Assembly: GCA_021324615.1 (NCBI GenBank)
Contig: JAJPIT010000016.1
Coordinates: 1 to 64,000 of the forward strand
Origin: Terriglobia bacterium
Lineage (GTDB): Bacteria; Acidobacteriota; Terriglobia; Bryobacterales; Bryobacteraceae
Length of the DNA stretch: 64,000 nt
Reading direction: 5' to 3'
This document shows positions 49,829 through 54,233 of this stretch, in pieces; the first letter of the stretch is position 1, and every line of letters begins with the position of its first letter. The notes under the pieces were generated by a model. The model was given only the letters and a program-made list of their open reading frames with translations, was not told where the DNA came from and did not search any database. Both the position numbers and the translations under genes were made by a program.

Positions 49829-51433
49829 GTGTTTGACACAGCGCCGGCGTCCGCGGTAAAAACATTCTTGCGACCGCCTACGTCTTCTGGCGCGCTCACG
49901 CGCCGCGAACTTTTCGCCGCCGGCGCCGCTGCGGCGACGCGACTTGCCATGGCCGACACTTCCCCCGATGTGTCCACCCTGACCCTGAAGCAAGCCTCCG
50001 GCGAGGTTCGGGCCAAACGCGTCTCGCCCGTTGAGCTGACGCGGCAATGCCTGGAGCGCATCGCGCTGTTTAATCCGAAGATCAACGCCTGGATCACGGT
50101 GATGCGGGAAAAGGCGCTCGAGCAGGCCCGCGTGCTGGAGCAGGAACAGCTCGCCGGGCGCCTGCGGGGCCCGCTGCACGGCATCCCGGTCGGCATCAAG
50201 GATTCGATCGATGTCGCCGCGGTGCGCACCACGGCTGCCAGCGCCGTTTACGAATACCGCTTCGCCTCCGAGGACGCCGAAGTGGTGCGGCGTCTGCGCG
50301 CGGCGGGCGCGGTGCTCGTCGGTAAATGCAACATGCATGAGTTCGACGCCGGAGCGAGTTCCGCGGTCAGCTATTGGGGCCCGGTGCGCAACCCCTGGAA
50401 TCTGGAGCGCGTGGCGGGCGGGCCTTCCGGCGGATCGGCCGCCGCCGTGGCGATGGCCAACTGTTTCGCTGCGCTGGGGACCGATACCGCCGGCGGCATC
50501 CGCATTCCCGCCGCTTACTGCGGCGTGGTGGGCCTGAAGCCGACGTTCGGACGGGTTAGCATGCGCGGAATCGTGCCGATGGCCTGGTCGCTCGATCACT
50601 GCGGCCCGCTGGCGCGAACCGTGGAGGACGCCGCGCTGGTTCTTCAGGCGATCGCGGGTTACGATTATCAGGATATCGACAGCGCGGACCGCGCCGTGCC
50701 CGACTACCCCGCGGCCATTGGCGCGCCGGTGGCGCAGTTCCGCCTGGGCGTGCCGGTCGAGTTTTTCGATCATCTGGACGAGGACATCGCCCAAGCGATG
50801 GACGCCGCGCTGGAGGTGCTCCAGAAATTGACGAAAGGGACCCATGAAGTTGGCCTGCCGCCGCTGCTGCACGCGCAGGTGAACGCGGAAATTATCGCCG
50901 CGCACGAGAATGTCCGCGGCGTCAACGGCGGCGTTTTCGAACCGAGCACCGCCCGCGCTTTCTCCGCCTCGCCCGATTCGGCGCGGGCGGTGGATTACAT
51001 TCGCGGCTGGCGGAATCTGGAGCTGGTGCGGCGCACCGTGGATGAGAGTGTATTCCGGAAACAGAACGTGGATCTGCTGATCGCTCCGGCCGCGCGCCAC
51101 ATGCCGCCGTCGATCGAGATGGATCTGGTCCCCGCCCCGGCGCCCGGGGGCGGGCGCGGGAATGCGGCGCCGCGAAAGCCCGATCTGGAGTCGGCGACGC
51201 GCGCTTTCAACGGCTACGGCCTGCCGGTGATCACCGTTCCGTGCGGATTTTCAAAGGACGGCCTGCCGATCGGGATGCAGATCGCCGGCCCGCACTTTGC
51301 GGAAACGCAAGTTCTGGCGCTCGCGCATGCTTATCAACAGGCGACCGAGTGGCATCTGCGGCGCCCGCCGCTGGCCCCCGATACGAAGGTTCCTGTTCTA
51401 TCCAAGGCCGCCGCCGAGCAGACGGGAAGCTAG
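49829..51433 (+). CDS. Tat-exported amidase-family protein lacking both catalytic serines
   Basis: This 534-residue member of the amidase signature family has a twin-arginine signal near residue 25 (TRRELFAAGAAAATRLA). Counting from the GTG at 49829, Lys124 of the Ser-cisSer-Lys triad is present (VGIKDSID). The cis-serine position is Pro199 (GGPSGGS) and the nucleophile position is Gly223 (GTDTAGGIR). The spacing 124-199-223 equals the 75 and 24 of active enzymes, so alignment is secure. It is probably catalytically dead. The active-looking paralogue follows directly. Confidence 0.85.
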   Translation: MFDTAPASAVKTFLRPPTSSGALTRRELFAAGAAAATRLAMADTSPDVSTLTLKQASGEVRAKRVSPVELTRQCLERIALFNPKINAWITVMREKALEQARVLEQEQLAGRLRGPLHGIPVGIKDSIDVAAVRTTAASAVYEYRFASEDAEVVRRLRAAGAVLVGKCNMHEFDAGASSAVSYWGPVRNPWNLERVAGGPSGGSAAAVAMANCFAALGTDTAGGIRIPAAYCGVVGLKPTFGRVSMRGIVPMAWSLDHCGPLARTVEDAALVLQAIAGYDYQDIDSADRAVPDYPAAIGAPVAQFRLGVPVEFFDHLDEDIAQAMDAALEVLQKLTKGTHEVGLPPLLHAQVNAEIIAAHENVRGVNGGVFEPSTARAFSASPDSARAVDYIRGWRNLELVRRTVDESVFRKQNVDLLIAPAARHMPPSIEMDLVPAPAPGGGRGNAAPRKPDLESATRAFNGYGLPVITVPCGFSKDGLPIGMQIAGPHFAETQVLALAHAYQQATEWHLRRPPLAPDTKVPVLSKAAAEQTGS

Positions 51434-52966
51434 ATGGAAACGACCCGCCGCGATTTTCTCGCCCTCACCGCCGCCGCGGGCATGCTGGCCGCCGCCCCGC
51501 ACGACGATCTCGCCGCGATGACGCTGAAGCAAGCCTCCCAAGCGATCCGCTCGCGCAAAGTCTCTCCGGTCGAACTCACTGAAGCCTGCCTGGAACGGAT
51601 CGCGGCCTATAATCCCAAGATCAATGCCTGGATCACGGTGATGCGCGAGCAGGCGATGGAACAGGCGCGCGCGCTCGAAAAGGAGCAGGTTGCCGGGCGC
51701 TTTCGCGGCCCTCTGCACGGCATCCCGATCGGGCTCAAGGACAACATCGACTGCGCCGGCGTGCGCACCACCGCGGGCAGCCGTACGCTGGCCGGCAACG
51801 TCGCCTCCGAGGACGCTGAGGTCACCCGCCGGCTCAAAGCGGCGGGCGCGGTGATTGTGGGCAAGTGCAACATGCACATCTTCGCCGCAGGGGCGACGTC
51901 GGCGGTTAGCTACTTCGGGCCGGTGCGCAATCCCTGGAATCTGGAGCTCATCGCCGGCGGATCGAGCGGCGGATCGGCCGCCGCCGTCGCAATGGACAAT
52001 TGCTACGCGGCGCTCGGCACCGATACAGGCGGATCGATCCGCACGCCCTCGGCCATGTGCGGCGTCACCGGATTCAAGCCGACCTACGGGCGCGTCAGCA
52101 TTCGCGGAATCGTGCCGCTCACCTGGTCGCTGGATCACTGCGGCCCGATTGCGCGAACTGTGGAAGACACGGCGGCGGTCCTGCAAGTGCTCGCGGGATA
52201 CGATCCTCTGGACGTTCAGAGCATCGATTATCCCGTGCCCGATTATTCGCAGGGCATCGGCGCTCCGGTGGCGCAGTTCCGCCTCGGCATCCCGCCGCAG
52301 TTTTATGACGGCCTGGAGGAGCCGGTGGCGCGCGCGATGGACGAGGCCATGACGCTGCTTAAGAAGATGACCCGGGGAGCGCGCGAGGTGGAGCTGCCGT
52401 CGATCCTCGACACCGGCGCGGGGAGCGAAGGCGCCGTTTTCCGCCAGATGCTCGGCGGCGAGTTCGTGGTCGGCGAAGAGGCATCAACTCCGCCGCCGGG
52501 CGCCGGAGCCGGCGGACCTCCGGCCGGGCGCGCCGTCGATTACATCCGCCAGTGGCGCAACCTGCGCCTGGTGCGCCGCATCGTCGGTGAGGAAGTTTTC
52601 AAAAAACAGAACGTCGATTTTCTGATCACGCCCACCATTCGTGAGCTTCCCTGGCCGATTGAAGAGGAACTCGACCGGCTGGCCAACGCGCATCCGCGCA
52701 ACCCGAAGCCGGGAAACACGCGCTCGCTTGACGATTATGGCCTGCCCACGATCACGGTGCCGTGCGGAATTTCGAGCAGCGGGTTGCCGATCGGATTGCA
52801 GATCAGCGGGCCGCCGCTGGGCGAGGTGAACGTCCTGGCGCTGGCCTACGCCTACCAAAGCGCGACGGACTGGCATACACGCAAACCGCCGCTCAAGCCG
52901 GACGCGAAGGTCCCCGTGCTGTCGAAAACCGCCGCCAGCCAGACCGGAGAATCCGTCACTCGCTAG
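51434..52966 (+). CDS. Tat-exported amidase, active-site complete
   Basis: This 510-residue amidase signature enzyme hydrolyses an amide bond; the substrate cannot be told from sequence. A twin-arginine signal starts at TTRRDFLALTAAAGMLA. The full triad is present: Lys102 (IGLKDNID), cis-Ser177 (GGSSGGS) and nucleophile Ser201 (GTDTGGSIR). It starts with ATG on the base after the stop of the upstream catalytically dead paralogue, so the two are translated together. Its 3' end overlaps the convergent permease gene by 11 bases. Confidence 0.92.
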   Translation: METTRRDFLALTAAAGMLAAAPHDDLAAMTLKQASQAIRSRKVSPVELTEACLERIAAYNPKINAWITVMREQAMEQARALEKEQVAGRFRGPLHGIPIGLKDNIDCAGVRTTAGSRTLAGNVASEDAEVTRRLKAAGAVIVGKCNMHIFAAGATSAVSYFGPVRNPWNLELIAGGSSGGSAAAVAMDNCYAALGTDTGGSIRTPSAMCGVTGFKPTYGRVSIRGIVPLTWSLDHCGPIARTVEDTAAVLQVLAGYDPLDVQSIDYPVPDYSQGIGAPVAQFRLGIPPQFYDGLEEPVARAMDEAMTLLKKMTRGAREVELPSILDTGAGSEGAVFRQMLGGEFVVGEEASTPPPGAGAGGPPAGRAVDYIRQWRNLRLVRRIVGEEVFKKQNVDFLITPTIRELPWPIEEELDRLANAHPRNPKPGNTRSLDDYGLPTITVPCGISSSGLPIGLQISGPPLGEVNVLALAYAYQSATDWHTRKPPLKPDAKVPVLSKTAASQTGESVTR

Positions 52967-54233
52967 AGGGGAGCGGTTTCGGCCTGCGCGACGCGACAAG
53001 GTAATAAACCGGAAGGCCCGCCGCCACCAGCAGCAACCCGACCGCCGACTCGCGCGGATCGGCCACCAGTTGATTGACCACCACCACCGCGCATCCGGCC
53101 AGGAACAGCAGCGGCGCGGCCGCCACCTGCTTCCGCAGGCGCATCAGGCCGATGGCCATCAGCGCGAAGAACAGAAACTCGGTGTAGACGACGCGCGTAA
53201 ACAAGGTCCGGTACGTGCCGGTGGCGACCAGCGCGCAAGCCCACACGCCCTGCGCCGCGATGGCGGTGTGCGGCGTCCGGAACCGCGGATGGGTCTGGCC
53301 GAGCACCCGCCATGCGTATCCATCCCGGGCCAGCGCATAATAGACGCGCGGCCCGGCGAGCACGGTCCCGCTCAATCCGCCGAACGCGGAAACGATCACC
53401 AGAATCGCGACCAGCTCCGCCGCGCGCGGTCCGGCCAGCACGTCCGCCGCGTCCGCCGCGATGTGCTGGGAATGGAGCACGGTGGAAAGCGGCAGCACGC
53501 GCAGATATGCCGCGTTCAGGGAAAGGTAGGAGACCGTCACGATGGCCATTCCGATGAGCAGCGCCCGCGGAATTGTTTTTTCGGCGTGATGCGTCTCTCC
53601 TGCTGTGTACGTCACCTGATGCCATCCGCCGAAGGCGAACAGGCCCGCGCTGATGCCGAGCAGAAACTCGCGCGCGCCCCGCGGGGCGCCAGGGCTTATT
53701 CCCGCTTCCGGCCGCGGACCCGCAAGCACGGCGGCCGCCACCAGGATCGCCGCAATCGCCGCCACTTTCGCCATGGTGAACGCCGTCTGCACGCTGCTGC
53801 CGGCACGCACGCCGGCGTAATTGACCGCCGAAAGCAGCACAATGCAGCCGATCGCCACCACCCTGATCCCGGCGTCGTTCAGCGGCGCCAGAACCGCGAC
53901 GTACCGCGCCAGCACCACCGCGATGGCCGCGATGATTCCGGACTGCGCGCTCCAAAACATCGCCCACACCCACAGGAATCCCACCGCGGGAGAGACCGTC
54001 TCTTTCAGATAAATGTAGACGCCGCCGGTTTGGGGAAACGCCGCGGCAAGCGAGGCGGCGACCATCGCTCCGGCGATCGAAACAATGCCCGCGGCGGTCC
54101 ACACCCCGAACATCGCGCCGATGCTCGAAACATGCCGGCTGACTTCGGAGGGCTGGACGAAAATCGACGCGCCGATGATGATCCCCACCACCATCGCCGT
54201 GGCTCGCACCAAACCCATGGACCGGCGAAGCAA
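52956..54233 (-). CDS. APC-superfamily amino acid permease
   Basis: This 425-residue inner-membrane transporter has about 12 transmembrane helices. The first helix has VVGIIIGASIFVQPSEV, matching the GxGIG-type unwound segment that binds substrate in APC transporters, and a later AFGGWHQVTYTAGET matches helix 6. It may be a solute:cation symporter or antiporter for amino acids. Its 3' end overlaps the amidase gene. Upstream is the enoyl-CoA hydratase gene, 9 bp away, so the two may form one transcript. Confidence 0.88.
   Translation of the reverse strand: MLRRSMGLVRATAMVVGIIIGASIFVQPSEVSRHVSSIGAMFGVWTAAGIVSIAGAMVAASLAAAFPQTGGVYIYLKETVSPAVGFLWVWAMFWSAQSGIIAAIAVVLARYVAVLAPLNDAGIRVVAIGCIVLLSAVNYAGVRAGSSVQTAFTMAKVAAIAAILVAAAVLAGPRPEAGISPGAPRGAREFLLGISAGLFAFGGWHQVTYTAGETHHAEKTIPRALLIGMAIVTVSYLSLNAAYLRVLPLSTVLHSQHIAADAADVLAGPRAAELVAILVIVSAFGGLSGTVLAGPRVYYALARDGYAWRVLGQTHPRFRTPHTAIAAQGVWACALVATGTYRTLFTRVVYTEFLFFALMAIGLMRLRKQVAAAPLLFLAGCAVVVVNQLVADPRESAVGLLLVAAGLPVYYLVASRRPKPLPSSE

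Follow-up and report, generated by a model that had tools for sequence, protein, structure and literature searches.

A catalytically dead amidase and its live twin in Bryobacteraceae: a possible escort and partner for Tat export

Two amidase paralogues at one locus

The window, the whole 64,000-nucleotide stretch of contig JAJPIT010000016.1 that was analysed, comes from a Terriglobia bacterium of the family Bryobacteraceae and contains two tandem genes of the amidase signature (AS) family, A and B, preceded by a promoter-like element (Table 1). PF01425 (Pfam Amidase) matches both proteins at full length (E 9.8e-107 for A and 8.1e-110 for B; cut-off 27 bits), and 313 of 504 aligned residues are identical between them. 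At the aligned catalytic positions A has Lys124, Pro199 and Gly223 and B has Lys102, Ser177 and Ser201, with spacings of 75 and 24 in both proteins, in agreement with the residues, reading frames and spacing given in a preliminary description of this DNA. That description began A at GTG 49829, a longer alternative start; we favour TTG 49868 as the probable start, since the GTG overlaps the conserved promoter-like element and the TTG aligns with the ATG of relatives, and the rest of the reading frame stands. The start codon lies 6 nt past the element, so the mRNA of A is probably leaderless. The number of matches to the element expected in the window by chance is 0.00, and one is observed. At the other end of the locus, a convergent amino acid permease gene (52956-54233, minus strand) shares 11 nt with the 3′ end of B, and a related permease lies close to the A/B pair in the relatives G008 and G037 as well.

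Table 1. Features of the A/B locus, in window coordinates
Feature	Position	Strand	Basis or remark
Promoter-like element TTGACA-N16-GGTAAAA	49833..49861	+	Sole match in window and genome
Gene A, pseudo-amidase (amidase signature fold, catalytic serines both gone)	49868..51433	+	PF01425 and AF2 model
Tat-type signal of A, TRRELFAAGAAAATRLAMA	49868..49954	+	RR motif and hydrophobic stretch
Lys124 codon of A, catalytic lysine position retained	50198..50200	+	Lys in 12/12 A
Pro199 codon CCT of A, cis-serine position	50423..50425	+	Ser in 12/12 B
Gly223 codon GGC of A, nucleophile position	50495..50497	+	Ser in 12/12 B
Gly/Arg/Pro-rich insert of A, residues 434-456	51128..51196	+	Low pLDDT in this stretch
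A/B junction: TAG of A (51431-51433), then ATG of B directly (from 51434)	51431..51436	+	
Gene B, amidase signature enzyme with K102, S177 and S201 intact	51434..52966	+	PF01425
Tat-type signal of B in the window genome, METTRRDFLALTAAAGMLAAA	51434..51496	+	Motif rule

The AF2 model of A, built from a 45-row alignment, has a pLDDT of 88.5 and a pTM of 0.89, and its best match is GatA (2df4; Z 53.6, rmsd 2.2, 454 residues), so A comprises the whole amidase fold. The solved folds nearest to A are GatA (2df4), the biuret hydrolase AtzE (6c62) and the peptide amidase PAM (1m21). Neither protein reaches the 481.1-bit cut-off of the GatA equivalog TIGR00132 (311.5 bits for A, 323.3 for B), and none of the NCBIfam amidase models among those listed passes its cut-off for A or B. 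All A proteins contain a Gly/Arg/Pro-rich loop insert, which is short in the window and tens of residues long in most relatives. Most B proteins have a Gly/Ala-rich loop elsewhere, at about residues 340-366 of B.

Loss of the catalytic serines and selection on A

A search of 237 family genomes recovered 12 orthologues of A, from eight genera, and an order-wide search of 257 genomes returned the identical 12. In a phylum sample of 396 genomes, in which the top three candidates per genome were scored and which leaves a sampling gap, no A was found beyond the window's own genome at E<=1e-165. The cis-serine position of the orthologues is Pro in seven and Ala in five, the nucleophile position is Gly in ten and Ala in two, and the lysine is kept in all 12; as a structural reading, Pro at the cis-serine position suits a cis peptide bond. 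Measured against the Lys, cis-Ser and Ser nucleophile of an active enzyme, every A therefore retains the lysine and has lost both serines, and all 12 B proteins have the three residues, as predicted for a live amidase. Among 144 distinct amidase ORFs at the fetched loci, the lysine is conserved throughout, and the 12 A proteins are the only ones without a catalytic serine, the other 132 being intact. At one of these loci (L071:612-6563, Acidobacteriaceae bacterium ZG23-2) three consecutive amidase-signature ORFs occur, every one with intact Lys/Ser/Ser.

In a tree built without the catalytic columns, the 12 A proteins form one clade (100/99), as do the 12 B proteins (100/99), and A and B jointly form a clade (100/100) with intact amidases outside. 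The simplest history is a single duplication, with both serines lost on the stem of A. The preliminary description had read Pro199 and Gly223 as a true substitution in a full-length protein, and its pseudoenzyme reading was to be doubted if relatives of A had intact serines, with loss in this strain only, or if close relatives had frameshifts or stops. The serines are absent from all 12 orthologues across the eight genera, and all 12 frames are open. Strain-specific loss or sequencing error is ruled out by the same 12 serine-free orthologues and open frames, together with an omega of about 0.1.

Selection was measured by pairwise NG86 counts, and since dS exceeds 1 in most genome pairs, omega is given for only five pairs, those whose dS is below 1. 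In the lowest-dS pair, the window genome (G000) and G008, omega is 0.100 for A (bootstrap 95% 0.065-0.139) and 0.073 for B, and in four more pairs it is 0.090-0.126 for A. The dN/dS test proposed in the preliminary description thus places A under purifying selection (omega 0.09-0.13). Over the amidase core of A (residues 118-263) omega is 0.016-0.105, like B. These low values, overall and in the core, show that A is kept and that its core is held about as tightly as that of the live enzyme. A evolves somewhat faster than B, with dN of A above that of B in 47 of 55 genome pairs, and this is what a decaying copy, a pseudogene in the making, might show; we find such a reading scarcely credible, however, because it is contradicted by the open, full-length frames of all 12 orthologues, by omega of about 0.1, and by a Tat motif that is invariant across eight genera.

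Constraint within A is uneven. The nucleophile loop is relaxed, with positions 220, 221, 223 and 226 variable (T220 is T/S/A and G221 is G/A/S/N across the orthologues), whereas B and the sister group C show no variation at 220, 221 and 223, and at 226 they have Thr in 12/12 (B) and 11/12 (C) proteins. Lys124, Ser200 and Asp173 are invariant in all 12 A proteins; Asp173 (window 50345-50347) is Ala in 12/12 B and 12/12 C, and may be a partner of the orphaned Lys124. These three residues and the strong constraint on the core could be taken to mean that A is still an enzyme, acting through another nucleophile or chemistry that uses Lys124, Ser200 or the A-specific Asp173, but with both serines gone and the nucleophile loop relaxed in A and invariant in B and C, we regard this as improbable. 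In all, 17 sites are conserved (>=90%) in A and in B yet differ between them, and at these A shares the state of group C at eight and B at two; binding of a ligand of ancestral type may thus have been retained in A. At B residues 149 (51878-51880) and 337 (52442-52444), Glu has become Ile and His has become Arg, respectively; group C keeps the original residues, and since it is the live copy, not A, that changed here, the specificity of B may have shifted.

Inheritance, arrangement and export signals of A and B

B orthologues (threshold E<=1e-175) occur in 12 of the 237 family genomes, and 11 of these also have A (Fisher 5e-17, relatedness ignored); the assemblies are in many cases fragmented. 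G151 has A (on G151:C303) and no B at this threshold. In this assembly, which is 99% complete, the next best amidase shares 46% identity with B; B may have been lost or may fall in a gap of the assembly. G034 has B without A, with B at a contig end, so that A could lie off the contig. The pair is adjacent at eight of the 12 A loci, and unlinked in G152, G183 and G186. From the stop of A to the start of B the distance is 0 in G000 and G008, 1 in G179, 17 nt in G228, 2 in G037, 5 in G046 and −8 nt in both G042 and G001; in G001 the contig with A ends inside B, and its last seven residues are the first seven of the contig with the rest of B. The search proposed earlier, for a Pro/Gly-type copy beside an intact one, hence finds such pairs in eight genomes, and the zero gap between A and B that had been reported is true of the window genome and its close relative G008, the other tandem pairs differing. 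Across 17 compared stretches there is no wider operon: the flanking genes are not shared, and apart from A and B no gene recurs at the locus in the majority of genomes.

The A and B trees have groupings in common (G000/G008 with G179, G228 with G037, and G001 with G046/G042). These conflict with rpoB, in which G228 is nearest to G152 (91%) and distant from G037 (77.5%), and with genus labels too. They suggest that A and B were transferred together or share a history of paralogy and loss. With rpoB controlled, tree distances of A and B are correlated at a partial r of 0.80 among eight genomes, a value reached in 5 of 40,320 permutations. A and B thereby show the prozyme-like pattern of an inactive paralogue that is conserved and co-inherited with the active one. 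Together, the conservation of A, its co-occurrence and co-divergence with B, and adjacency in eight genomes support the earlier suggestion of a pseudoenzyme partner.

The promoter-like element follows the same genes. Searched as the strict pattern TTGACA-N16-GGTAMAA in the 237 genomes, it precedes ten of the 12 A genes (the exceptions are G046 and G042; that of the G183 A is a match on contig C16) and precedes B in all three genomes with unlinked B. The element thus stays common to A and B when the genes are apart, and an element duplicated along with the gene and then conserved would suffice to account for this. Only four further matches occur in the 12 A-bearing genomes (G001, G042, G151 and G228); stray matches of this kind are expected, since a backward control pattern also matches occasionally across the family. 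Promoter activity of the pattern is presumed from its sequence.

Tat-type signals were assigned by our own rule, twin Arg and a hydrophobic stretch ahead of the mature part, and not by SignalP. They are present in 12/12 A, 12/12 group C and 5/5 group D proteins (C and D, 17/17), and in none of four of the distant group E. In B, the signal is found in four of 11 assessable genomes (G000, G008, G186 and G152), and B is without one in G179, G228, G037, G046, G042, G001 and G183; the B of G034, truncated at the contig start, is excluded from this count, and that of G001 was read from the neighbouring contig. In the seven B proteins without a signal, the distance from the start codon to the end of the conserved LTLKQAS-type motif at the head of the mature part is 13-18 residues, and the B frame of G228 is closed by a stop two codons ahead of its start. 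The asymmetry between A (12/12) and B (4/11) gives a Fisher p of 0.0013 with relatedness ignored, and the counts are not independent because the genomes are related; by parsimony, the B tree requires two changes of signal state, or three with A counted as signal-bearing. TatC is present in 13/13 genomes. Tat export of A, as first described, thus agrees with the motif in every A, and the asymmetry in B had gone unseen.

Of the seven B genes without a signal, six follow A immediately, and these six pairs (G179, G228, G037, G046, G042 and G001) have the anatomy of a Tat hitchhiker, in which one partner has the signal, the other lacks it and the two are encoded together. This anatomy is absent in the window genome and G008, in which both A and B have a signal. 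The signal asymmetry is the strongest hint of an A-B complex, and it suggests that in several relatives the dead copy is the escort with which the live sister leaves the cell. Escort would not be universal, since four genomes, that of the window among them, have a B with its own signal. The idea is also weakened by G151, with A and no B, and by the three genomes in which the genes are unlinked, one of which (G183) has a signal-less B. Taken by itself, a B that lacks a signal predicts a cytoplasmic location. On that basis, A could be an exported amide-binding protein or sensor and B a cytoplasmic hydrolase, the two forming no complex, and the group C residues that A has at 8/17 differing sites, against two for B, would fit a binding role. 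We consider this unlikely, as B has its own export signal in four of 11 assessable genomes, and the live enzyme would have switched compartment two or three times while the exported dead sister was always retained, G034 (B at a contig end) being the possible exception. Furthermore, the pair has no transporter as a conserved neighbour in the 17 stretches, and the amino acid permease is near it in three genomes only.

Interpretation and comparison with known systems

We favour, with a probability of roughly 0.55, an A-B heteromer in which the dead A carries the Tat signal and may export the live B by hitchhiking, a proposal that draws on the hitchhiker anatomy of the six tandem, signal-asymmetric pairs. 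An exported amidase of two subunits would have arisen by gene duplication, and the loss of both serines would be a single event on the stem of A. B would be the catalytic subunit, and A, with the amidase fold, the Tat signal and much of the pocket still in place, would be its non-catalytic partner. The task of A would be to escort the folded complex through the Tat pathway and probably also to stabilise or activate B; where B lacks a signal (7/11 assessable genomes), it would be carried across the membrane as a hitchhiker on A. In the window genome, where B has a signal of its own, a partner rather than an escort role must explain A, and A would there be mainly a partner or regulator of B. The complex, its co-export and an effect of A on the activity of B are what we infer from these features. 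A fused A-B chain, in which the TAG of A was read as Q and the alignment held the fused and A rows only, folded with low scores (pLDDT 34.8, pTM 0.28), as just two rows covered B. The broader evolutionary account, that one copy gave up catalysis to become a dedicated Tat escort and partner, with export of its paralogue among the functions selected for, while its live twin repeatedly lost its own signal, seems to us slightly short of an even bet.

A heteromer could also form in which A activates B allosterically or stabilises it, with hitchhiking incidental or absent. The presence of a Tat signal on both proteins in the window genome is compatible with this, and dead paralogues that activate a live partner are known for trypanosomatid deoxyhypusine synthase and the AdoMetDC prozyme (PMC3663545, PMC5201418). 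We hold this to be a minority possibility, the foremost of those that compete with escort, because it leaves unexplained why the signal is lost in B (7/11 assessable) and never in A. In the heteromer with escort, by comparison, signal loss in B would be a built-in reporter for complex formation, since a B that lacks a signal and is periplasmic only in the presence of A would demonstrate the heteromer. The natural series of genomes, with both copies signal-bearing or only the dead one, linked or unlinked, makes it possible to test directly why a dead copy is retained. If this reading is true, the pair would also be a warning against calling A an amidase and B cytoplasmic in these soil bacteria.

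Compared with the AS family, A shares the whole fold and most of the signature but, of the Ser-cisSer-Lys triad, has only the lysine, and B has all three residues. Toc64 is not known to retain the catalytic serine. AS-fold proteins in other roles include Toc64/OM64 of plants, import receptors with an amidase-like domain (PMC3095331, PMC3877065), and Tse8 of Pseudomonas, which binds GatCAB and shows no amidase activity of the GatA kind (PMC12283126). In such a non-amidase role they resemble A, whereas Toc64 differs in its TPR repeats and membrane spans. Neither Toc64/OM64 nor Tse8 is known to be encoded with an intact paralogue.

Pseudoenzymes have mostly been studied as eukaryotic allosteric regulators. 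The trypanosomatid prozymes are like A/B in pairing a dead paralogue with a live sister, and unlike it in being eukaryotic, in having experimentally shown allosteric activation and in the absence of any export role. Among open-licence PMC articles, covered by titles and abstract openings, we found neither a dead/live pair of amidase signature proteins nor a pseudoenzyme acting as a Tat escort.

MelC1, the small helper of the Streptomyces MelC1/MelC2 tyrosinase pair, is not known to be related to its enzyme. The Tat pathway carries folded complexes. In HybOC and PaoABC of E. coli a signal-less catalytic subunit rides on a partner with a Tat signal (PMC4273604). These resemble A/B in having the signal on one subunit and none on the catalytic one, and differ in being cofactor enzymes of unrelated subunits, with no pseudoenzyme. 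In MelC1/MelC2 the upstream helper has the Tat signal and the downstream enzyme, without one, hitchhikes (PMC2758597). MelC1/MelC2 and the six A/B tandems are both two-gene operons with the signal on the upstream helper and a signal-less downstream enzyme; MelC1, however, is a small copper helper, whereas A is a dead paralogue of its enzyme and the hitchhiking of B is predicted. What A/B adds to these systems is a dead copy that always has the export signal and a live copy that has it only sometimes.
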